The notes beneath the pieces were generated by a model that was not told where the DNA came from, made no database searches, and saw nothing but the letters and a program-made list of their open reading frames with translations. Positions 564-20,754 of a stretch of 20,754 nucleotides of DNA are shown piece after piece. Position 1 is the first letter of the stretch. Each line of letters starts with the position of its first letter. The stretch lies in IMG/VR virus record IMGVR_UViG_3300032265_001415, positions 1 through 20,754 of that record; one strand, given 5' to 3'. The stretch is from a virus. Made by a program: the position numbers and the translations under genes.

Positions 564-3500
564 ATGCCTAGTTCATCAAATATTTATGCTGAAAAGATTT
601 ATTCAGAACACCCAAGTGTTTTGTGGGCTTTGGACGACCAAGCAGACTACATTTCTCTTTTATCTTCTGATACAAAAAATTTAGTAAATTGGACCAAGGT
701 CAATGGTTCTTTATCAAAAACCAATTCATCAACCACTCAGCCTTTTGTCTCAGATGATTTATTTTTAGTTACTGGAACACCATCAACTACAGATATTGCT
801 TATACAACAATAACTAGTACTGATATTGCTAATTTTACAGATCTTAATCAAATGTTAAACTCTTTCTGTATAGGATCTTATTTTTATTCTAATAGTATTC
901 ATATTGCATCAATTGCTATTGGATATGAGTATTATGATATTATTAGTGGAACAAATGTTCAAAATTTAAAAGAAATCCCAATTACTCTTTATAACAATTG
1001 GATGTTCTTATCTGAAACATTTTCTTTACCTAAACAAAATACAACCATGAGAATAGTAATTAAAATAGGTTATTATCCAAGTGCTGAAGATAGTTCTCAT
1101 TATACATTTTTAATTAATGGTGTTTCTATTGGTCAATGGTCAGAAGAGTTTAATTCATTTTCTTCTGGATCTCTGACCGTAGATTTACCATCATCAATCC
1201 CATTAGAGTCATGTAAAGCAGTTTCGGCATATGCATATGGTTTAAATACTAATCAAGGATATTATTTAATTAATAATAATGCATTAACCTCTAGAAATTC
1301 TGGAGTACCGCTTGTTTATGGTGCATCTAATACAACAATTTTATCTCCAAATCTAAATTCTGACTCAACACCAAAACCATCTCTTATTGTTCCTGGTTTA
1401 GGATTTTTAAATGAAATTGGAAGGTATAAAGATTTAACTGTTGAAATGTGGCTAAGAATTACTGCTCAATCTTCTACACCTAAAAGAATTTTTGGACCAA
1501 TTTCTTCAACTGATGGACTTTACATTGATGGATCCTTTTTAACATTAGTTATTGATGGTAATTTTAAATCTAAATATATTGGTGAATGGTGTAGGCCAAT
1601 GTTATTAGATATTTCTTTAATTGAAAATAAAGCAATTGTTATTTTGAATGGTGAAAAAATTATTGAACTTAGTATTGATAGAACAAGTTTAAATTTACCA
1701 CAGCAATTTTTAAATGGTAAAAATTTAGATTGGCTTGGTTTTTATGCATATCAAGATATAACCCCTATTGAGTTAGACTGTGTAGCAATTTATCCTTATG
1801 CAGTTCCTGAAGTGGTTGCTAAAAAAAGATGGGTTTATGGTCAAGCGGTAAAATCATTAGAATCTGTCGACTCTTCTTATAATGGTACAACTTCTCAAAT
1901 TGATTATACTTTTTCGCAATATGCAAATAATTACTCATATCCTAATCATGGTTCCTGGAAACAGGGCAAATTTGACGGACTTATTTCTGATAATACATCA
2001 CTAATGTCACCTCAATATGAACTTCCAGCATTTATAAGTGACACAACTACACTAGATAATATTTTTAATTTAAACTCAAGTATACAAACAGAAAGCAATA
2101 TATTTTTTACTTTATCCAACAATAACGGATATTTATTTTTAAATTCACTTGCTTTTTTAACTAATAAAACTAAATCTTTTTATGGTTTATTTAAAGTAGA
2201 TTCAAATATTGCTAATGAACAAACTTTGTTTTTTATACAAAATAAATTGACTTTAGAATATTTTAAAATTACATTATTAAACAATACAATTTACTATAAG
2301 TTTTATTCAAAAAACTCTGGCCTGCTTACAATTTCTTCTAAAAACTATATTAATGGATCAATATTTTCTGCGGGAATTGATATAGATCAAATATGCTCTT
2401 ATTATGGTAAAGACATGATTTCATTTTGGTCTAATCTAAATAATCTCAATGTCTTTATTTTAAATGATCAGAATAAAACTTCTCATTACTCTCATAAACT
2501 TTATAAGATAGGATTTTCCACATTCCGTAACTCATCTTCAATAGAAACTAATTTTGACTCATTTGGAATCATAGATCCTAATTCTGATATTTTAGATTTT
2601 GTAGCAAGTTATACAATGGTTCCAGAATTAGAATATGGAACATACTATTTAGACTTAGACATTGCTGGATACTGGGAAGATTATATTCCTTTAACATATT
2701 TTGCTAAAAACATAACAGATTCTTTTGGTAATCAAAAATACGATCTTGACTTTATTCAATTTAATATTGATGCACCCTCACCACCAAACTTTATTAGTTC
2801 TTCACAAAAGGCAAGTTGGACATATGGAGAATTGAATGCAAAATTTGCTTCGCCAACTCAGCAACCGTATGATATTTTAGATAATAAACTTTATACTGGT
2901 TATGAGACATATAATGATTTGGCCTACGATAAATCTTCATTCCTATATGAGTATAATACTCAAAATAGTAATATTAGATCTTATATTACTTTTCAATATG
3001 TTTCAGATGGATTAAATCAACTTCCAGAATATTTTACTACTACTGCACCAGCATTAAAAAGTGGAATTGTTAATTTAGAAAATGATTTAAACTGGATGAC
3101 CACAAAGTATGAAGTAGTTAATGACACAATAATCTACCCACCACAAAATGTTGATTTTGCTGATTTGGCAATTGTTGTTCATCTAGAAGTCAAGACTTCT
3201 GGAAGTACAAATAAAGTTATTCAATTAAAGTCTTTAGAGTTTGCATCTCAGTCTAATAATGAAAGTTCGGCAACAGCAATTGGAACACGATTTGGTAATA
3301 AATTGTATCCATATAAAAAATCTGGTGCATATTTTGATTATAAATCTAAAAATCCAATTAGCATATATAAAAAGAGTAGTCCCTATTTACATTTAACTAG
3401 ATATAGTGGCATTCAGGTTAAGGGTCCATTTGATCCAACAGTTAATAGGGGTGTTGCTTTAATCATTAATAAAAATAAAGTTAGCGAATATCAAGTTGGA

Positions 3501-4160
3501 GCAGTTCAGGTTGCAATGAGATATGATGATGACTTTTTCCCAGCAACACCCTATCCAGTTTTTGAAATTCAAAACGCAGATACATCTATTAAGTTTTACA
3601 TGCAAGCAAATAGCAGTTCTGGAGATAGAGCAAAAATATTTGCAATTGATTCTAAAACTGGAAAATTAAAAAATGGTATATCTTATTATCTAAATGGCAT
3701 TCTTGTTGCTGAGCCAACTATAACGGTAAAGCAGTGGGCATTTTTAGGAATATCTTTTGCAGATCCAGTATCGTTTGAATCTACGTCTGGATACTTTAAC
3801 TTAAACGGACCTTTGCTATTTAATAATATTTCTTATTATAAAATTTCCAATTTACAAAAACAACAAAGTGCTTCTACTAGAGTATGGGATGAAATTAAAC
3901 AAGCATATATTGTTGGAAATCCAACTCCTCAATATTTTATGTGGAATTATTGGTATCCAGCATATACATGGTTTGGGGTTATGGTAAAGTCTACCTCTTA
4001 TTCCTATGGAATTACCCCTTCAGATATTTATAAAACATATATGGGAACAAATAAGATTATTGTTGGAAATGATGGAGAAAAGCAATTAAAGGTTTATGAT
4101 GATCCAATTAGCGTGTATTCTAACACTGTTCAGCAATCATATGTGCTTGATCCAGTATAA
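564..4160 (+). CDS. large multi-domain LamG/jelly-roll virion protein, candidate tail fibre or receptor-binding protein
   Basis: A 1198-residue protein with AGGAGA at 553-558 as ribosome-binding site. The N-terminus (YAEKIYSEHPSVLWALDD) resembles the start of minor tail or lectin-like proteins I associate with actinobacterial phages; this is recalled, not searched. Four beta-rich stretches look like concanavalin/LamG-type jelly rolls, at roughly residues 45-225, 255-415, 505-665 and 945-1095. The second has the typical strand pattern DLTVEMWLRI at about residue 290, followed by VILNGEKIIEL. The fourth has SYYLNGILVAEPTITVKQW. The protein is rich in Asn, Ser, Tyr and Ile and has no signal peptide or membrane helix. 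Such domains commonly bind glycans, so adsorption to the host surface is a reasonable role. It lies before the portal gene, away from the usual post-tape-measure tail-fibre position, so a head fibre is also possible. Third-position bases are strongly A/T, unlike the capsid gene. Confidence 0.6.
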   Translation: MPSSSNIYAEKIYSEHPSVLWALDDQADYISLLSSDTKNLVNWTKVNGSLSKTNSSTTQPFVSDDLFLVTGTPSTTDIAYTTITSTDIANFTDLNQMLNSFCIGSYFYSNSIHIASIAIGYEYYDIISGTNVQNLKEIPITLYNNWMFLSETFSLPKQNTTMRIVIKIGYYPSAEDSSHYTFLINGVSIGQWSEEFNSFSSGSLTVDLPSSIPLESCKAVSAYAYGLNTNQGYYLINNNALTSRNSGVPLVYGASNTTILSPNLNSDSTPKPSLIVPGLGFLNEIGRYKDLTVEMWLRITAQSSTPKRIFGPISSTDGLYIDGSFLTLVIDGNFKSKYIGEWCRPMLLDISLIENKAIVILNGEKIIELSIDRTSLNLPQQFLNGKNLDWLGFYAYQDITPIELDCVAIYPYAVPEVVAKKRWVYGQAVKSLESVDSSYNGTTSQIDYTFSQYANNYSYPNHGSWKQGKFDGLISDNTSLMSPQYELPAFISDTTTLDNIFNLNSSIQTESNIFFTLSNNNGYLFLNSLAFLTNKTKSFYGLFKVDSNIANEQTLFFIQNKLTLEYFKITLLNNTIYYKFYSKNSGLLTISSKNYINGSIFSAGIDIDQICSYYGKDMISFWSNLNNLNVFILNDQNKTSHYSHKLYKIGFSTFRNSSSIETNFDSFGIIDPNSDILDFVASYTMVPELEYGTYYLDLDIAGYWEDYIPLTYFAKNITDSFGNQKYDLDFIQFNIDAPSPPNFISSSQKASWTYGELNAKFASPTQQPYDILDNKLYTGYETYNDLAYDKSSFLYEYNTQNSNIRSYITFQYVSDGLNQLPEYFTTTAPALKSGIVNLENDLNWMTTKYEVVNDTIIYPPQNVDFADLAIVVHLEVKTSGSTNKVIQLKSLEFASQSNNESSATAIGTRFGNKLYPYKKSGAYFDYKSKNPISIYKKSSPYLHLTRYSGIQVKGPFDPTVNRGVALIINKNKVSEYQVGAVQVAMRYDDDFFPATPYPVFEIQNADTSIKFYMQANSSSGDRAKIFAIDSKTGKLKNGISYYLNGILVAEPTITVKQWAFLGISFADPVSFESTSGYFNLNGPLLFNNISYYKISNLQKQQSASTRVWDEIKQAYIVGNPTPQYFMWNYWYPAYTWFGVMVKSTSYSYGITPSDIYKTYMGTNKIIVGNDGEKQLKVYDDPISVYSNTVQQSYVLDPV

Positions 4161-4162
4161 TA

Positions 4163-4171
4163 TGGTATACT
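4163..4171 (+). promoter_or_regulatory. extended -10 promoter (TGGTATACT), likely leaderless start
   Basis: TG at 4163-4164 and TATACT at 4166-4171 form an extended -10 box directly after the stop of the large jelly-roll gene. The same TGGTATACTT string recurs before the gene at 12700. The distance from the box to ATG 4179 is seven bases, the usual distance to a transcription start. This suggests a leaderless mRNA. No Shine-Dalgarno sequence is visible, which fits. No clear -35 is seen. Confidence 0.5.
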
Positions 4172-4178
4172 TATGGTT

Positions 4179-4583
4179 ATGAATCTAGAAAATCCAAAGA
4201 AAAACCGTAAACCATTGCCAAAAATGAAAGGGCAAGTGGGCGAATCCCGTGCAAAAATTATCGAAAAGCATTATGACTGGGGTCTTTATGTGTATAAAAA
4301 GTCTAATGGAAAATGGTTTACTGATGGAACTGGATCTGTATTAAATATAGAATCAATGAAGGGTGACATTACTCAGATTGCAAAACTGCGTGATGCTGCA
4401 AAATATTATGGAGATGAAGGCGATGGAGAATGTATTTTTGTTCCAGGTCTTACTAGAATTTCAGAAGAAGAATATTCTGAGCAAAAGCAAAGATTGGCAG
4501 AAGGTTTAATTCCTTCAATGAATGACTTAGGTGCTGTGCAAGCAGCAAAAGACACTATTGCTATGTATGGAAATGAGGACTAA
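4179..4583 (+). CDS. hypothetical protein preceding the portal
   Basis: A 134-residue protein of unknown function, soluble and without membrane segments. The first 25 residues are basic (ENPKKNRKPLPKMKG). A compact middle follows with aromatic residues (HYDWGLYVYKKSNGKWFTDG), then an acidic C-terminal part. An in-frame ATG lies six bases upstream at 4173, but it sits one base after a TATACT box, so I prefer 4179, where a leaderless start would fall. No ribosome-binding site precedes either ATG. The stop codon overlaps the portal start by one base (TAATG), implying translational coupling to the portal. Its position suggests a head-assembly or packaging role, but I do not recognise the family. 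Confidence 0.7.
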   Translation: MNLENPKKNRKPLPKMKGQVGESRAKIIEKHYDWGLYVYKKSNGKWFTDGTGSVLNIESMKGDITQIAKLRDAAKYYGDEGDGECIFVPGLTRISEEEYSEQKQRLAEGLIPSMNDLGAVQAAKDTIAMYGNED

Positions 4584-8922: not shown

Positions 8923-9360
8923 ATGGAAAATGTTAATCCAATCGAAGAAACAAAGATTGATGCTCCTGTAGAAGTTCCAGCAGTTGAAGAGGTAAAGCCA
9001 GAACCAGCAAAGGTCGAGGATGCACCAAAGGCAGCAGAAGAGTCTAAGGCTCCAGATGCCATTACAACAAATTCATTTGCAAGATCTACAGCAACAAATC
9101 CAGCAGTTGGATCAGTTGCAAACGGAGCAATTGGTGTTACAGAATCGACACCAGCACCAGCAAAGGCTCCAAAGCCAAAGGCTGAAAAGAAAGAAGAAAC
9201 CGTAGCAATTCACTCTACAAGAAATGTTGTTTGGGGAGAAGTTGGTAAGGTCCTTAAGGGAATTAATATTGTTACTAAAGAAGAAGCAGAGCAATGGCTT
9301 ACTCGTGACCATGTTACCCTTGTTAAGCCAGAAGACGTTGCTAAGGAATTTGGTTTATAA
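8923..9360 (+). CDS. Pro/Ala/Lys/Glu-rich small virion-associated protein (hypothetical)
   Basis: A 145-residue protein with an excellent AGGAGG at 8911-8916. Residues 1-93 are low-complexity, rich in Pro, Ala, Lys, Glu and Val, and probably disordered. Residues 94-145 form a small folded-looking domain (VAIHSTRNVVWGEVGKVLKG, then KEEAEQWLTRDHV). I have seen similar C-terminal motifs in unassigned proteins encoded just after actinophage capsid genes, but cannot name a function. Its position and strong translation signals suggest a decoration, head-fibre or connector-associated virion protein. It has its own promoter and is separated from the capsid gene by a hairpin, so its dose is set independently. 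The next gene follows four bases after the stop codon. Confidence 0.7.
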   Translation: MENVNPIEETKIDAPVEVPAVEEVKPEPAKVEDAPKAAEESKAPDAITTNSFARSTATNPAVGSVANGAIGVTESTPAPAKAPKPKAEKKEETVAIHSTRNVVWGEVGKVLKGINIVTKEEAEQWLTRDHVTLVKPEDVAKEFGL

Positions 9361-11974: not shown

Positions 11975-12628
11975 ATGGCTTATACAAGAGGTAGTTCCAA
12001 CAAGGTTATCGTTGGTGCAGCAGCATTGTTTACATACAATTCGTCACTAGACGGCACACCAGCAGCAACCCTAGGAAATAAACTCCCAGCGTTCGAAGCA
12101 TCAAAGTCTTACAGAGATACTCTCTCTTCAGATGAAGATTTTACAAACGTTGGATATACAAGCAACGGTCTAGAACTAGACTTCCAACCAACATTTGGTG
12201 AAGTTAAGGTAGACCAGGTACTTGACGTTGCCCGTCTTTTCAAGGACGGTATGCAAGTATCAATGAAGACATCATTCGCTGAGGCAACACTAGAAAATCT
12301 TCTAGTTGCAGTTGCAGCAAATGATGCAGACCTAGCCACCCTAACGGGTACAGGTGTGGGTACAACCAGCCAAAGTTTCGATATCAAGTCTGGCGAATTG
12401 GGCGACGTTCCTCTAGAGCGTGGTTTGGTTGCCGTTGGTCCAGGAACTGGCGATCCATCAGTACACAAGGAGCGTATCTATATTGGATACCGTGCTTTGT
12501 CAATCCAGAACGTAATAGTATCCGCTAAGCGTGATGCTGCAACAATGTTCGACGTAACTTTCCGTATGCTTCCATTGGATAATGGTTCATATGGTAAGAT
12601 TCTTGATCGTGTTATTGCTGGTGCATAA
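11975..12628 (+). CDS. major tail tube protein
   Basis: A 217-residue protein in the tail-tube position, between the head-tail cassette and the tail chaperones. It begins MAYTRGSSNKVIVGAAALFT and continues with beta-rich sequence (TNVGYTSNGLELDFQPTFGE, QNVIVSAKRDAATMFDVTFR). This includes the short-range LDFQPTFGEVKVDQ region and the final MLPLDNGSYGKILDR that I associate with tube proteins of actinobacterial siphophages. AGAGGTG at 11962-11968 is the ribosome site. Codon use is strongly C-ending, like the capsid gene, which fits hundreds of copies per virion. A strong intrinsic terminator follows 24 bases after the stop. The lack of an adjacent sheath gene argues for a non-contractile tail. 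Confidence 0.8.
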   Translation: MAYTRGSSNKVIVGAAALFTYNSSLDGTPAATLGNKLPAFEASKSYRDTLSSDEDFTNVGYTSNGLELDFQPTFGEVKVDQVLDVARLFKDGMQVSMKTSFAEATLENLLVAVAANDADLATLTGTGVGTTSQSFDIKSGELGDVPLERGLVAVGPGTGDPSVHKERIYIGYRALSIQNVIVSAKRDAATMFDVTFRMLPLDNGSYGKILDRVIAGA

Positions 12629-12652: not shown

Positions 12653-12685
12653 GGCCCTATTCTTCGGAATGGGGCCTTTCTTTTT
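12653..12685 (+). terminator. strong intrinsic terminator with UUCG tetraloop
   Basis: A ten-pair stem joins GGCCCTATTC (12653-12662) to GAATGGGGCC (12667-12676), with one G-U pair. A C(UUCG)G tetraloop (12663-12666) closes it, and TTTCTTTTT (12677-12685) follows. It ends the tail-tube transcript. The last T of the tract is also the first base of the extended -10 box of the next promoter. Confidence 0.95.
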
Positions 12686-12693
12686 GGTATACT
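12685..12693 (+). promoter_or_regulatory. extended -10 promoter, leaderless start of the long chaperone (TGGTATACT)
   Basis: TG at 12685-12686 and TATACT at 12688-12693 abut the terminator. ATG 12700 lies six bases past the box, exactly where a transcription start is expected, and no Shine-Dalgarno is present. A leaderless mRNA is therefore likely. The same ten bases, TGGTATACTT, occur before the gene at 4179. Confidence 0.6.
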
Positions 12694-12699
12694 TAATTA

Positions 12700-13377
12700 A
12701 TGGCTACAAAAATATATGAAGAACATCCAGTATATTTAATTGATGGAACAAAACTTTTAATTTCACCATTAAAGATAAAATATTTACATCCTTTCATGGA
12801 AACATTTTTGGCTGTCAAAAATACTTCAGATGATTTTGAGGCAATTGCTTTAATGGTTGAGTGTGTTCGCATATCAATGGAGCAATACTATCCAGCACTT
12901 TCTTTATCAACTGATGCTGTTGAGGATAATTTAGATTTGCCAACTATTTATAAAATATTAGATTATGCTGCAGGAATTAAGATTAATGGTGAGAAAGAAG
13001 AATCAGTAAAATCTCAGGCAGAGGAAGGTGGATCAAGTTGGTCAGACTTGGACCTAACAAAACTTGAATCTGAAATATTTTTAATTGGGGCATGGAAAAG
13101 TTATGACGAATTAGAACGATCATTGTCTATGCCAGAACTATTGGGAACAATATCTATAAAAAGAGAATTAGATCATTTAGAGAAAAAGTTCCTTGCTGCT
13201 ATGCAGGGTGTAGATATTGATGAAGGTAAAAATGAAGATGCTTGGGAAGAAATGAAGAGAAGGGTTTTGTATAAAGGAAAAGATCCAGATGACATTACTA
13301 CTCTTACAGGTGCTAGAGCAATGGAAGCAGGATTTGGTGTTGGTATGGGTATTGATTATGAAGAAATTACTGCGTAA
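12700..13377 (+). CDS. long tail assembly chaperone (GT-like)
   Basis: A 225-residue protein just before the tape-measure region. Residues 1-97 are paralogous to the next gene (shared LIDGTK, PLKI, PFM, EC, EDN-DLPT-YKI), about 45% identical by eye. Residues 110-225 form a C-terminal domain absent from the short paralogue, including GAWKSYDELERSLSMPELLG, which resembles the downstream-frame part of tail chaperones. These chaperones bind the tape-measure protein and recruit tube subunits. In most long-tailed phages the long form is made by a programmed frameshift; here it is one continuous frame, with no slippery heptamer at the domain junction. The gene appears to start leaderless and follows a strong terminator, suggesting modest expression. 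Confidence 0.75.
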   Translation: MATKIYEEHPVYLIDGTKLLISPLKIKYLHPFMETFLAVKNTSDDFEAIALMVECVRISMEQYYPALSLSTDAVEDNLDLPTIYKILDYAAGIKINGEKEESVKSQAEEGGSSWSDLDLTKLESEIFLIGAWKSYDELERSLSMPELLGTISIKRELDHLEKKFLAAMQGVDIDEGKNEDAWEEMKRRVLYKGKDPDDITTLTGARAMEAGFGVGMGIDYEEITA

Positions 13378-13392
13378 AAATGACCTTTGCTA

Positions 13393-13401
13393 TGCTATAA
13401 T
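13393..13401 (+). promoter_or_regulatory. extended -10 promoter for the short chaperone (TGCTATAAT)
   Basis: TG at 13393-13394 and a perfect TATAAT at 13396-13401 lie in the 52-base gap between the two chaperone genes. A start near 13408 gives a leader of about 22 bases containing AAGGAGG (13416-13422), seven bases before ATG 13430. Both elements look stronger than those of the long paralogue. No clear -35 is seen. Confidence 0.6.
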
Positions 13402-13429
13402 TAGAATAACCTTACAAGGAGGAAAATAA

Positions 13430-13750
13430 ATGGCAACAACTGTCAATGAAGAAAAAACAGTAACATTAATCGATGGAACAAAGATTAAGGTTAGACCACT
13501 TAAGATTTCCTTGCTACGTCCTTTTATGAAAAAGTTTGAAGGAGTACAAGGAGTCGCTGAAGACAATGATAAGTCAATGAATATTCTTATGGAATGTATT
13601 CAAATCGCAATGAAGCAATATAAGCCAGAACTCGCTGAAGATTTGGCAGCCTTGGAAGACAATATGGATCTTCCAACGGTTTATAAAATTATTGAGGAAG
13701 CATCTGGAGTAAATCTTTCAGGTACATCTGTTCTCAGTAATCTTCCATAA
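13430..13750 (+). CDS. short tail assembly chaperone (G-like)
   Basis: A 106-residue protein paralogous over nearly its whole length to residues 1-97 of the long chaperone. Both begin MAT, then share EE, LIDGTK, PLKI, PFM, an EC...QY.P.L block and EDN.DLPT.YKI. It lacks the C-terminal extension and ends nine residues after the shared region. It has a perfect TATAAT box and a perfect AAGGAGG, so high expression is expected, matching the excess of short chaperone (lambda gpG) over long form (gpG-T) in other phages. The tape-measure gene starts 25 bases downstream with no reading frame in between that could serve as a frameshift extension. Confidence 0.75.
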   Translation: MATTVNEEKTVTLIDGTKIKVRPLKISLLRPFMKKFEGVQGVAEDNDKSMNILMECIQIAMKQYKPELAEDLAALEDNMDLPTVYKIIEEASGVNLSGTSVLSNLP

Positions 13751-13775: not shown

Positions 13776-16700
13776 ATGGCTGATGTTGAGTCCAGTATAA
13801 AAGTCAGTATTGACACTACTGAGGCCTTAGCACAACTTAAGGCCCTCCAGCGTGAGATATCAGCCTTTCATACCTCCATGGCAAAAAATGGTGCAGCGGG
13901 TACCGCTGTATCTGCCAACATGCAACAAAATCTATTAAATCAAATTAATGCTGGTGGTAAATTCCAAGCACAATTAGTGCAAATTAATTCTACAAGTGAA
14001 GCATTCAATACAGCACTTGCAAAAAATCAATTTTCAATGAAAGAATACTTCCGCTATGCGGGAGCAGCAACTCAAACATTTGGTAAGTTATTTGCACAAG
14101 AACATGCAACAATTAATAAAGTTGCAAGAGAAAATGTAAAAACTTTACAGACACAATATATTAAACTTGGCAGAGATGCCAATGGTGCATTGCAAGGAAT
14201 GGCTGTTCGTCCACTAACTTTGGACATGCAAAATCTTCAAACACAAACTGCATTAGCAGCACAGAAGCAAGTTTTATTTAATCAACTTTTGCGTCAAGGA
14301 TCTACAAATCTTTTAAATTTTGGTAAAAACACGCAGTGGGCTGGTCGTCAGTTGATGGTTGGTTTTACTGTACCTTTAATGTATTTTGCATCTACTGCAA
14401 GTAAAGCATTTATGCAGATTGAGCAACAGGCTGTAGATTTTAAACGTGTTTATGGCGATATGTGGACAACAACCGCAGATACAAACAAAGCACTTGCAGA
14501 TGTTCAAAAACTAGCAAATGGATTTACACAGTATGGTGTTGCAGTCGCAGATACAATGAAGTTGGCTGCACAGGTTGCTGCTACTGGTAAAACTGGTGCA
14601 GACCTTATTCAGCAAGTAACTAGTGCAACAAAACTAGCAGTTCTCGGAGGAATTGATCAACAAAAATCATTAGACACAGTAATTTCTCTTACATCAACAT
14701 TTGGTGTTACTGCTGATAAACTTGCTGGAAGCATTGACTTCTTAAATGCTGTAGAAAACCAAACTATTCTTAATATTAATGATCTTACAACAGCAATTCC
14801 AAAGGCTGCTCCAGTAGTAAAACAATTGGGTGGAGATGTTAAAGATCTAGCATTCTTTATGACTGCAATGCGTGAGGGTGGAATCGATGCAGCACAAGGT
14901 GCGAACGCAATTAAATCAGCATTAGCAAACATGATTAATCCAACTAAATCAGCAACTAGTATGCTTCAGGGATTTGGAATTAATTTAACAGCAATTGTTA
15001 ATGGTGATAAAGGTAATGTTAAGCAAATGGTTATTGACCTTGCTAGAGCATTAGATACGTTAGATCCTTTGAATCGTGCACAGGCAATTGAAAAAATGTT
15101 TGGTAAATTCCAGTTTGCACGTATTTCTACTTTGTTCCAAAACGTTATTAAAAATGGAAGTCAGGCACAAACAGTATTGGAACTTTCAAGAGCAACAACA
15201 GAAGAACTTGCAATCCTATCTGAAAGAGAACTGAAAAAAGTTTCAGATTCTCCAATGTATAAATTTCAAAAACAAGTTCAAGATCTTAAAACTGCAATTG
15301 CCCCAATTGGTGGAGAATTTTTAAAAGCACTTACACCAGTTCTTAAATTCTTTAATGGAATATTTGATAAGTTTAATCATTTAGGTGACGGCACTAAGAA
15401 GTTTATTGTATTATTAACAACATTGCTTGCTGGAATTGGTCCATTAGTTTTGATGTCTTTTGGTCTTCTTGCTAACGGTGTGGCAAATATCATTAAATTA
15501 TTTGTTGGAATTAAATCTGTATTTAATAGGGCAGGAGATTCTTCTAAAGGATTAGGAGAACAAACTAACTTCTTAACACAGCAACAAATGCACAATGCTG
15601 CTGCTGCAGCATCTTTAGATCAAGCACATCAAAAGTTACAACAACGTTTTACCTCTGAAACAGAAGCAGTAAGAATGTTAACTGCAGCATACGAAGAATC
15701 AATTCTTGCACAAAGAGCATTTGGAATGTCAGCACTTCCAGGTGCAGTTGGAATGAAACCAGTGATGAAGTATGCTGAGGGTGTTGTTAGTGTTCCTGGT
15801 CCTAAAGGTGCTGGAGATGTTGTTCCAGCAATGCTTTCTCCTGGAGAAGCAATTATTCCAGTTGCACAAAATAAAAAATATGCTCCACTTGTTCAAGGTA
15901 TTATTGCAGGCAAACTTCCAGGTTTTGCAGGTGGCTCTGCAGGGGTTGGAACAAAAATTGGAAGTATTTCTGCAGGCAATCAAACTTTTACATTAACGAA
16001 TCTTTCAAATAAAAATACAGCAGGCCTTATTCAAAAATTGATTGATCAAACAGTTGGAACAATGGATGCGGTCATTATTTCTGCATTAGAAAAACTAGGA
16101 ACAGATACTAAGGTAACTGTTGAAAAGTTTAAAGAAGTGGTTAGAGTTGAGGGTGCTGCAATGAATGAAGCAGTTCCAGCATCATTTAGTCAATCAAGAT
16201 CAATGACAAGGGCAACAAGATATAATGCAGCATCAGCAGGAATCAGATCTGATATAAAAACACAGTTAACGGTAGAACGTGGTGCTACAGCAGCACAGGC
16301 AGAATTAGCAAGAGCAAATGCTGCAGCAAAAGCAATAGGTGCAAAACTAACAGAACTTGGTGCTACAACTGCACAGATTAATGCTGCAATGCAATTAGAC
16401 AGAGCACACATAGTTGCAATGGGCAATGATGCTAAAAAGATTAAAGAAGCCTGGAATTCAAGTTTATGGATAACACAAACAGGTGCAGAAAACAATATGA
16501 TTTCAAATGCTTTAAAATCATCTCCAAGAAATAGAATTGCATATCAAAAAGCATTAGAACAAGTTGGAGTAGATACAGAAGTTCAGAACGCACTGATGTC
16601 TAAAATTAATCAAAATATTGGTTTAACAGAAGCAGAACTACAAATTCAAGCCAAAGTATTAGATAAAATGGTTCAAGATTCAAAAGTTGCAGGCTATGAT

Positions 16701-19700: not shown

Positions 19701-20754
19701 CAAAATGGAAAATTATTTAAGTTGCAAAAAGATGGAAGCATTAAAATGCTTGTCGAAGGTAAAAAACTTAACATGGCACTTAATGCTATTGCAGTAGGTA
19801 ATTTTGAAAATGCACAAGAAAAAGTTCTTAAATCTGTTAAAAATCAATCAGTTGGATTTACCAAATTAACTGCACTTGGATATACAACTGCAGAAGCATA
19901 TAGTGCCTTATCTGATGCAGAATTTGCTGCAGCAGTTGCTTCTGGAGAAATGACAGCAGCAGACATAAAAGCAGCAATGGCAAAAGCAAGACTTGCAACA
20001 GCAACACAAAAACAAGCAGATCAACAAAAGGCTGCAAACGAATATTTAACCAAGGTAAAAGATGCATTAGATAATGAAGCAGCATATACTAAACTTGCTG
20101 GAGCATTAAATTCAATGGGATATGCAACAGATCAAATAGCAACAATTCTTGGCGATGATAATCTTGCACAAGGATTTATAGAAAAACTTAAAGCGGGTAA
20201 ATTGGATGCTCAGGAAATTGCAGACTCATTAAAACAATTACAACAAACTCAAATTCAACACACTTCTACTCAATTGGCTTCTGGAGATTTTACTGGTGCT
20301 TTCCAACCAGGATATGATGCAGCCAATAAGTTGTTTGATATTAAGTCTCGTATGCTTGACATGGAATATCGTGGCACACTTAAAAATGACCAAGCAGCAA
20401 TTGATGGAGCACAAGCACAAGTTGATGCAGAACAAACATTGATAGATGCAAAAAATCAACAAATCAATGTTCAACAAAAGGTCACTGATGCTGCTCAAGC
20501 AGAAGTCGATGCTGCAAATCAATTAATTCAAGTTCAAAATGATAGAAATGATAAATTGTCACATGATCTTAAACTCATGGATCACGCTGCTCAGGCAATC
20601 AATGATAAATATGATAAACAAAAAATAGCATTAGAGAATATTGCTAACCTCAATTCACAAATTGCTGCACAAGAACAAAAGAGGGTAACTCTTGCCGATG
20701 CATTAACTCAGGGAGATATTGGTGCTGCTGCAAAGGCTGCTCTAGATATGAAGG
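13776..20754 (+). CDS. tape-measure protein (TP901 family), partial at window end
   Basis: An open frame of at least 2326 codons with no stop before the window edge. AAGAGG at 13761-13766 precedes ATG 13776 (MADVESSIKVSID); an out-of-frame ATG at 13772 is ignored. Residues about 200-480 match the TP901 tape-measure core, including GGDVKDLAFFMTAMREGGID and the following Ala-rich helix. A GDVVPAMLSPGEAIIP motif at about 680-695 and a SPSKRMRKIG...GEGFILG motif at about 1042-1062 are both recurrent in tape measures. Hydrophobic segments lie at about 1227-1289, and a Gly/Ala zipper at about 1480-1525 could enter the host membrane during DNA injection. Residues about 2205-2290 look coiled-coil. 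The protein sets tail length; at about 0.15 nm per residue the tail would be at least about 350 nm. Confidence 0.92.
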   Translation, partial: MADVESSIKVSIDTTEALAQLKALQREISAFHTSMAKNGAAGTAVSANMQQNLLNQINAGGKFQAQLVQINSTSEAFNTALAKNQFSMKEYFRYAGAATQTFGKLFAQEHATINKVARENVKTLQTQYIKLGRDANGALQGMAVRPLTLDMQNLQTQTALAAQKQVLFNQLLRQGSTNLLNFGKNTQWAGRQLMVGFTVPLMYFASTASKAFMQIEQQAVDFKRVYGDMWTTTADTNKALADVQKLANGFTQYGVAVADTMKLAAQVAATGKTGADLIQQVTSATKLAVLGGIDQQKSLDTVISLTSTFGVTADKLAGSIDFLNAVENQTILNINDLTTAIPKAAPVVKQLGGDVKDLAFFMTAMREGGIDAAQGANAIKSALANMINPTKSATSMLQGFGINLTAIVNGDKGNVKQMVIDLARALDTLDPLNRAQAIEKMFGKFQFARISTLFQNVIKNGSQAQTVLELSRATTEELAILSERELKKVSDSPMYKFQKQVQDLKTAIAPIGGEFLKALTPVLKFFNGIFDKFNHLGDGTKKFIVLLTTLLAGIGPLVLMSFGLLANGVANIIKLFVGIKSVFNRAGDSSKGLGEQTNFLTQQQMHNAAAAASLDQAHQKLQQRFTSETEAVRMLTAAYEESILAQRAFGMSALPGAVGMKPVMKYAEGVVSVPGPKGAGDVVPAMLSPGEAIIPVAQNKKYAPLVQGIIAGKLPGFAGGSAGVGTKIGSISAGNQTFTLTNLSNKNTAGLIQKLIDQTVGTMDAVIISALEKLGTDTKVTVEKFKEVVRVEGAAMNEAVPASFSQSRSMTRATRYNAASAGIRSDIKTQLTVERGATAAQAELARANAAAKAIGAKLTELGATTAQINAAMQLDRAHIVAMGNDAKKIKEAWNSSLWITQTGAENNMISNALKSSPRNRIAYQKALEQVGVDTEVQNALMSKINQNIGLTEAELQIQAKVLDKMVQDSKVAGYDAKAVSGQFLMYAEAVSSGAAARLAMAQNQGILIEGAITRTAEEVRSAVAKLAAALPEGAAEELMVASPSKRMRKIGQQGGEGFILGAQESVKEAKVVGEEVGTTLVSQAGRARRGTSWSGGAPGQGMTVPIVGNTMVASQAARQQGVSDDIAARAAQRRAQADNNGTAAQNGLTKAEMKYLGVKKNTILNDEEYALIGRQRIAAEEARLVADRELLGITEQRTLTEEELLQVEKMRAGQEGAKGGMSAGKLGGAFMAASMVAMIGSQMGGSIGAISQKLMMPLMTMGMIMPLLNSKMGALAVGVGLVIAAFMWLRKTYDDAQNKALALGEAMGSGTKNIIALSKAAGMVSAGEAMDRRRQNQFMPLNIQTGKSTFGQTFVQSEIGTQMLKDIGATVAAKGTAGAQKATSAQLATAVASGAMSIDQARSVAANLGQQLHDYSFGIKVNAELIKIVGMNGENLLTDPLALRVNLIENTRKDLNAYGSQSKRAYGGYAGKDLTNIGGYAAAGAGAGAAAGALIGSVIPVVGTAVGAVAGTLVGAIAGGLFGARDRAKRIGLASGANVAEDKMALEQSSQLVDSLDMQYQKRIEIAKAAGDEATATKLQLQYEKDKAELLKEQGKLQGDILKNFKGQGEDMQKAMLGGTDKAITSKYKGTAMEDVAKLASSQIGDAGMSREKQYTLKMALASGNIDPQTMVHLMETFGKDSASMNKVMTIITKFGGKFAGQAQQVVDMMTTPTEKAQFLVDIAAKNPKEAERYLAFMGSVGAMGTIIDTKIAVDLYQKDPKVADATMAIIDKINAQKGKIDLKIATEILGAKSEALAALAQDMAYFGTLPPEQQKTFLTVLQTEFDIKGDPDQIKKYKAWLAEKGNSAKTYADFANFQAEQVTKAGVDTSSGSSLSQTPTASNAPTASPLDDVIKKLRDLRQLQIGLTTGWSASWAAMDKYFTANSKGVVKMSAGLLTNKKGEFMGLGQQLRKQNVNEQTIDFITGLSADDFKAQNGKLFKLQKDGSIKMLVEGKKLNMALNAIAVGNFENAQEKVLKSVKNQSVGFTKLTALGYTTAEAYSALSDAEFAAAVASGEMTAADIKAAMAKARLATATQKQADQQKAANEYLTKVKDALDNEAAYTKLAGALNSMGYATDQIATILGDDNLAQGFIEKLKAGKLDAQEIADSLKQLQQTQIQHTSTQLASGDFTGAFQPGYDAANKLFDIKSRMLDMEYRGTLKNDQAAIDGAQAQVDAEQTLIDAKNQQINVQQKVTDAAQAEVDAANQLIQVQNDRNDKLSHDLKLMDHAAQAINDKYDKQKIALENIANLNSQIAAQEQKRVTLADALTQGDIGAAAKAALDMK

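Follow-up and report, generated by a model that had tools for sequence, protein, structure and literature searches.

Two paralogous tail chaperone genes probably stand in place of a programmed frameshift in a clade of siphoviruses

Two adjacent genes of an environmental virus, here called A and B, are very likely the long (G-T, TAC-NC) and the short (G, TAC-N) tail assembly chaperones of a siphovirus, a paralogous pair that replaces an ancestral frameshift and whose doses would be set by expression. They lie in a viral record of 20,754 bases (IMGVR_UViG_3300032265_001415, positions 1 to 20,754), referred to below as the window. From a comparison with several hundred related loci, we also think it reasonably probable that the change took place in the ancestor of a clade of siphoviruses, probably of Actinobacteria. 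In that ancestor a frameshift would have given way to a fused gene and its partner, with stoichiometry then set by the strength of the promoters and by the mode of initiation, leaderless or Shine-Dalgarno, and with codon adaptation moved from the old G to the short paralogue.

Results

The window is a structural gene cluster of a tailed phage, with genes in the order portal, protease, capsid, connector-position genes, major tail protein, A, B and an open reading frame in the tape measure position. The major tail protein gene (11975-12628, + strand), directly upstream of A, was assigned by PHROG matches to phrog_2175, the Ig-domain or major tail protein in Streptomyces relatives; in phages MulchMansion and Dorin the gene in this position is annotated as major tail protein. 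A (12700-13377, + strand) encodes 225 residues in one frame, and B (13430-13750, + strand) encodes 106 residues. The next frame on the + strand starts at 13776 and stays open to the window end at 20754, giving at least 2326 residues. Tape measure genes are annotated at its equivalent in Streptomyces and Rhodococcus relatives, and its product would be the expected client of the chaperones. The position of A and B between the major tail protein gene and this frame is shared by relatives.

Other genes of the window also merit description. A 2OG-Fe(II) oxygenase (12-542; PF13640, E 1.8e-8) lies beside the structural genes. Upstream of the portal gene, 564-4160 encodes a protein of 1198 residues that matches nothing in Pfam and may be a large virion component or a receptor-binding protein. 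Between the capsid and connector-position genes, 8923-9360 encodes a 145-residue protein with no Pfam family, its own TGATATAAT and AGGAGG, and a codon adaptation of 0.725, nearly at the capsid level; it is probably plentiful in the virion, for instance as a decoration protein.

An earlier note on this DNA had claimed that A and B share an N-terminal domain and that A alone carries a C-terminal extension in the same continuous frame, and both claims are borne out. Residues 1-97 of A align with B at 45/98 identities (46%, E 6e-32 in a single comparison), and A is built of a G domain at about residues 1-98, a linker, and a T domain at about 110-225. In a PHROG search, both proteins match phrog_10504 and the C-terminal part of A matches phrog_10474, two families that PHROG lists under unknown function. 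A Pfam search of A and B returned no usable family, and a PDB sequence search for the two returned no matches.

The identity of the extension comes from relatives. A tblastn search of A against annotated phages matched 132 records (one place per record), all of them Streptomyces or Rhodococcus phages. Among the best records listed, A matches in two pieces that correspond to two adjacent genes, often annotated as tail assembly chaperone, and identity to the Streptomyces phage chaperones is 34-41% with E values down to 2e-28. For TunaTartare and Yaboi, depositors annotated a joined chaperone product beside the short one, from genes between the major tail protein and the tape measure. These two-piece matches to adjacent, joined chaperone genes identify the C-terminal part of A as a T domain. 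The same part also matches T reading frames in the −1 frame of IMG/VR contigs. Since it is homologous to the frameshift-encoded T domains of Streptomyces phages and viral contigs, it is not the unrelated extension that the earlier note had named as fatal to its proposal.

Structure models are compatible with this assignment. The AlphaFold model of A (pLDDT 73.6) has a helical C-terminal part preceded by a beta hairpin and helices, and that of B (pLDDT 64.3) repeats the N-terminal part of A. Both are middling-confidence models; in BFVD, the best match of B was tail assembly chaperone A0A6J5QVP5 (E 1e-5, probability 1.00), and N15 GT was among the matches of A (E 0.004, probability 0.99). In a PDB structure search the HK97 chaperone 2ob9 matched weakly (E 4.0, TMt 0.46), and T4 gp26 and gp51 were absent among the matches listed in the BFVD and PDB searches. 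We regard these model-based matches as supportive of the chaperone identity, not decisive.

We then compared locus architecture across 436 sequences (loci plus the window), classified with profile hidden Markov models of the G and T domains. Each collection scan contributed its 80 best matches, so that the sample leans to sequences close to the queries and rare intermediates may have escaped. Among the 418 classifiable loci there was no mixing of states. All 175 complete fused loci, in which G and T share one frame, also contain a second copy of G, and all 243 split loci, in which G and T lie in different frames, have a single G. B was downstream of A in all of the first 172 fused loci, so the two-gene arrangement is conserved in relatives. 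A published experiment on TP901-1 bears on this association: an engineered permanent fusion of G and T gave complete-looking but non-infectious particles (PMC4493119), which explains why the fused state always comes with a separate G. Counting identical DNA once leaves 137 fused and 169 split sequences.

The 18 other loci comprise contigs that stop close to the match, two loci whose G has internal deletions, one with a T match at the contig edge, and two fetched only for WhiB. Apparent exceptions were traced to their causes. Contigs with A and no B all end within 160 bases of the last match and were rejected as true exceptions. Two loci that seemed to hold T without G (L231 and L236) have G genes with internal deletions and a junction of the split type. 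Assembly error was rejected as the source of the fusion, given 137 distinct fused sequences from many data sets.

The duplicated members found are all environmental contigs, and none of the 132 matching records in the phage collection (one place per record) has the fused, duplicated form. A scan of genome contigs yielded one contig, L191, from a metagenome-assembled genome titled uncultured cyanobacterium; it is of the split type and thus gives no prophage context. WhiB was present in 14 of 20 large relatives, of both locus types, and among 14 control genomes it matched only Corynebacterium. This pattern fits actinobacterial hosts, where leaderless genes are common.

The start regions of A and B differ. 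Upstream of A, a terminator-like hairpin read in the sequence (12653-12676, + strand; 10-bp stem, UUCG loop, then a T-run) closes the major tail protein unit. It is followed by a predicted extended −10 promoter, TGG-TATACT (12685-12693, + strand), that ends 6 nt before the ATG with no Shine-Dalgarno sequence. The terminator and the TATACT box are as the earlier note described them; the leaderless start that it read from them stands as a prediction. Its description of B holds in full, with a predicted extended −10 promoter TGC-TATAAT (13393-13401, + strand), of the type found upstream of the single G in frameshift relatives, and a Shine-Dalgarno sequence AAGGAGG (13416-13422, + strand) 7 nt before the ATG at 13430.

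These signals recur throughout the clade. After dereplication at 85% (60 fused and 60 split loci), they were found in 60/60 A and 56/56 B genes, compared with 13-50% in shuffled sequence. All 60 A genes have a −10 box with at least 5/6 matches within 4-11 nt of the start (shuffled, 13%), at a spacing of 6-9 nt, or 11 nt in two of the 60, and none has a Shine-Dalgarno sequence. Exact TATAAT precedes 55/56 B genes, mostly 24-29 nt before the start, and B genes carry a Shine-Dalgarno sequence of at least 4 nt in 54/56 cases, frameshift-type G genes in 59/59. A TGn extension accompanies the −10 box in 57/60 A and 55/56 B genes; the hexamer itself is consensus in 13/60 A genes versus 55/56 B genes. 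Starts are ATG in 59/60 A and 55/56 B genes. A terminator-like site lies upstream of A in 60/60 loci (shuffled, 27%) and between A and B in 2/60; with such sites so rare, transcription initiated at A should reach B as well.

In split relatives, the lone G carries B-type signals (TATAAT in 58/59, Shine-Dalgarno in 59/59); B thus retains a start region of the ancestral type, and A, apparently leaderless, is the one that differs. Judged from its start region, the mRNA of gene A is probably leaderless, and the combined signals predict more B protein than A protein. In mycobacteria, where about 14% of genes are leaderless, such mRNAs can be translated well: one study found no systematic difference between leaderless and leadered translation, but estimated lower transcript production for leaderless constructs (PMC7148126). 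This evidence points both ways and counts against a firm reading of A as weakly expressed.

Two further observations concern starts. The single G of split relatives (for example L018, L020 and L021) begins with TTG in 44/59 loci, which makes the start codon a second expression feature altered at the switch. Within the window, a small gene before the portal gene has a likely second leaderless start (4156-4179), with TATACT at 4166-4171, a 7-nt gap and ATG at 4179, without a Shine-Dalgarno sequence.

Codon adaptation, scored against each genome's own major tail protein, follows the same division. In split phages, G exceeds T in 55/56 cases (means 0.576 and 0.471). In fused phages, the N-terminal and T parts of A are equal (0.511 and 0.513) and B reaches 0.622, exceeding the N-terminal part of A in 53/59 and its T part in 57/59. 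With the capsid gene as the reference, 50/52 and 51/52 comparisons hold; 58/59 hold with A- and T-ending codons only, and 18/19 after deeper dereplication (70%). We rejected mere base composition as the source of this bias, which persists with AT-ending codons only and with a second reference gene. Thus the frameshift lineage appears to carry the mark of high expression on G, and the duplicated lineage on B, in agreement with the proposed doses.

A and B may instead have diverged to serve different clients or stages, B acting for example on the tape measure only and A as a loader of the tube protein or on another tail part, so that the dose ratio would be beside the point. Fixed residue differences (K27, Y28 and A91 in A versus S27, L28 and S92 in B) speak for such divergence, as does the faster evolution of the N-terminal domain of A, whose mean pairwise identity across loci is 55% versus 65% for B. 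However, such a division of labour already exists between gpG and gpGT, and A and B show the codon bias and the start signals that one would expect from the doses of G-T and G, respectively, which makes divergent roles an unlikely account of the pair.

The direction of the change was read from trees. In an unrooted T-domain tree, the fused loci form one side of a single branch (SH-aLRT 96), and one change suffices. Trina and Dorin, two Rhodococcus phages with a split locus (a single G, T in the −1 frame), served to root the tree. So rooted, it supports the fused clade at 97/88, and the Streptomyces phages branch outside the group of fused and other split contigs. With split outgroups, the frameshift is most simply ancestral and was lost once. 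The reverse history, in which the fused state is ancestral and the frameshift arose with loss of one copy, would also need a single change on the T tree alone. We consider it very improbable, since Trina, Dorin and the Streptomyces phages all have the split form, with its one G and −1 frame, and many tailed phages have kept −1 frameshifting (PMC5009743, PMC4493119). On the sequences compared, then, one switch from frameshift to duplication and fusion is the simplest history. In a G-domain tree, A, B and split G form three mutually exclusive groups, with B as a single clade. The T-tree root and the higher identity between A and B favour the two as sisters, from a duplication within the clade; the G tree alone cannot tell.

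Slippery sites separate the two states. T is in the −1 relation in 169/169 distinct split loci, and all except 4 of the 169 have a slippery heptamer: CCCAAAC in 127, CCCAAAT in 20, AAATTTG in 15, AAATTTA in 1, and GGGAAAA in 2, the latter being the Rhodococcus outgroups. A conserved frameshift site within A or B was another finding that the earlier note held would count against it, and there is none at the A junction or the B end. No heptamer of the right form lies near the junction or end in 125/172 A genes and 140/172 B genes. The classified loci hold no second T domain after B. Since A is read in one frame, A and B do not show the −1 frameshift by which a G/GT locus is recognised. That A itself still makes the short form, by a cryptic frameshift, an internal stop or processing, with B an accessory extra copy, deserves hardly any credence: the remaining A and B genes do hold right-form heptamers near the junction or end, but by chance and with none conserved, and the fusion never occurs without B.

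Among the split loci, four Boydwoodruffvirinae phages of Streptomyces (L029, L349, L350 and L351) have CCCGGAA, which would be a non-standard slip site, in place of the CCCAAAC heptamer. Yaboi (L349) is one of these, yet its product is annotated as joined.

Discussion

We propose that one locus of the ancestor yielded both chaperone forms, as in lambda, with ribosomes slipping into the −1 frame at a slippery site. A single duplication of the G region would then have occurred in the common ancestor of a large, mostly environmental phage clade; one copy would have fused in frame to T to give A, the other would have stayed G-only as B, and the slippery site would have been lost. The excess of G over G-T would now be met by expression, with A made from a weaker extended −10 promoter on a predicted leaderless mRNA, and B from a consensus extended −10 and a strong Shine-Dalgarno sequence, probably also from read-through transcripts starting at A. 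Both proteins would then act like lambda gpG and gpGT on the tape measure and tail tube proteins.

Duplication in place of a frameshift, as the earlier note put it, gains support from the existence of frameshift relatives, from the invariable presence of a second G in fused loci, and from both the conserved signals and the shift in codon usage. Homology, gene arrangement, the single switch, start signals and codon bias are established at the level of sequence. From these we infer that promoter and ribosome-site strength set the G:G-T ratio, which is consistent with everything we found.

The pair resembles lambda gpG/gpGT and other frameshift chaperones (Xu, Hendrix, Duda 2004; reviewed in PMC5009743) in that the short form shares the N-terminal domain of a longer form with an extra C-terminal domain, the genes lie between the major tail protein and the tape measure, and an excess of the short form is expected. 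Unlike these, A and B do without frameshifting: a single uninterrupted gene encodes the long form, and a paralogue with a promoter and ribosome site of its own encodes the short one. The closest frameshift loci are those of Stanwilliamsviridae (Streptomyces) and of the Trina/Dorin type (Rhodococcus), which match phrog_10504 and phrog_10474 and share with A homologous T domains and the same gene order. In the Streptomyces phages, the G domains too are homologous by tblastn, and the promoter and Shine-Dalgarno type before G is that before B. Unlike A and B, both types of locus have one G, with T in the −1 frame.

In T4-like phages, which are myoviruses, the chaperone genes are 26 and 51, which are not known to share a protein family with A and B. 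Vladimirov, Gautam and Davidson (2022, Virology 566:9; cited in PMC12846349 and PMC12859696) reportedly proposed separate chaperone genes for T4-like phages. The strategy of making TAC-N and TAC-NC from separate genes without frameshifting is common to both systems. Unlike the T4-like case, the switch to A and B is placed on one branch with frameshift relatives opposite, and start signals and codon bias can be compared across it.

Some Microbacterium cluster EA phages are described as having no evident frameshift (PMC7302621). Compared by that description, their chaperones appear only as two open reading frames, and the passages concerned report neither a G duplication nor an in-frame fusion. 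Neither the fused, duplicated clade nor a switch assigned to a branch, together with its expression signals, was described in the open literature that we searched. Separate-gene chaperones are already known from T4-like phages; what appears to be new is the fused, duplicated clade and the placed switch.

The results make phrog_10504 nameable as TAC-N and phrog_10474 as TAC-C. For annotators, a single-frame G-T gene with a nearby copy of G is a complete chaperone set. Tail-chaperone frameshifting is often treated as nearly obligatory because the G:G-T ratio matters. With the same family in both states across hundreds of loci and one switch between them, one can ask what selection holds constant, the ratio and not the frameshift, and how it is rebuilt. 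If our reading is true, the clade would be a natural experiment on converting translational control of a ratio into transcriptional and initiation control.
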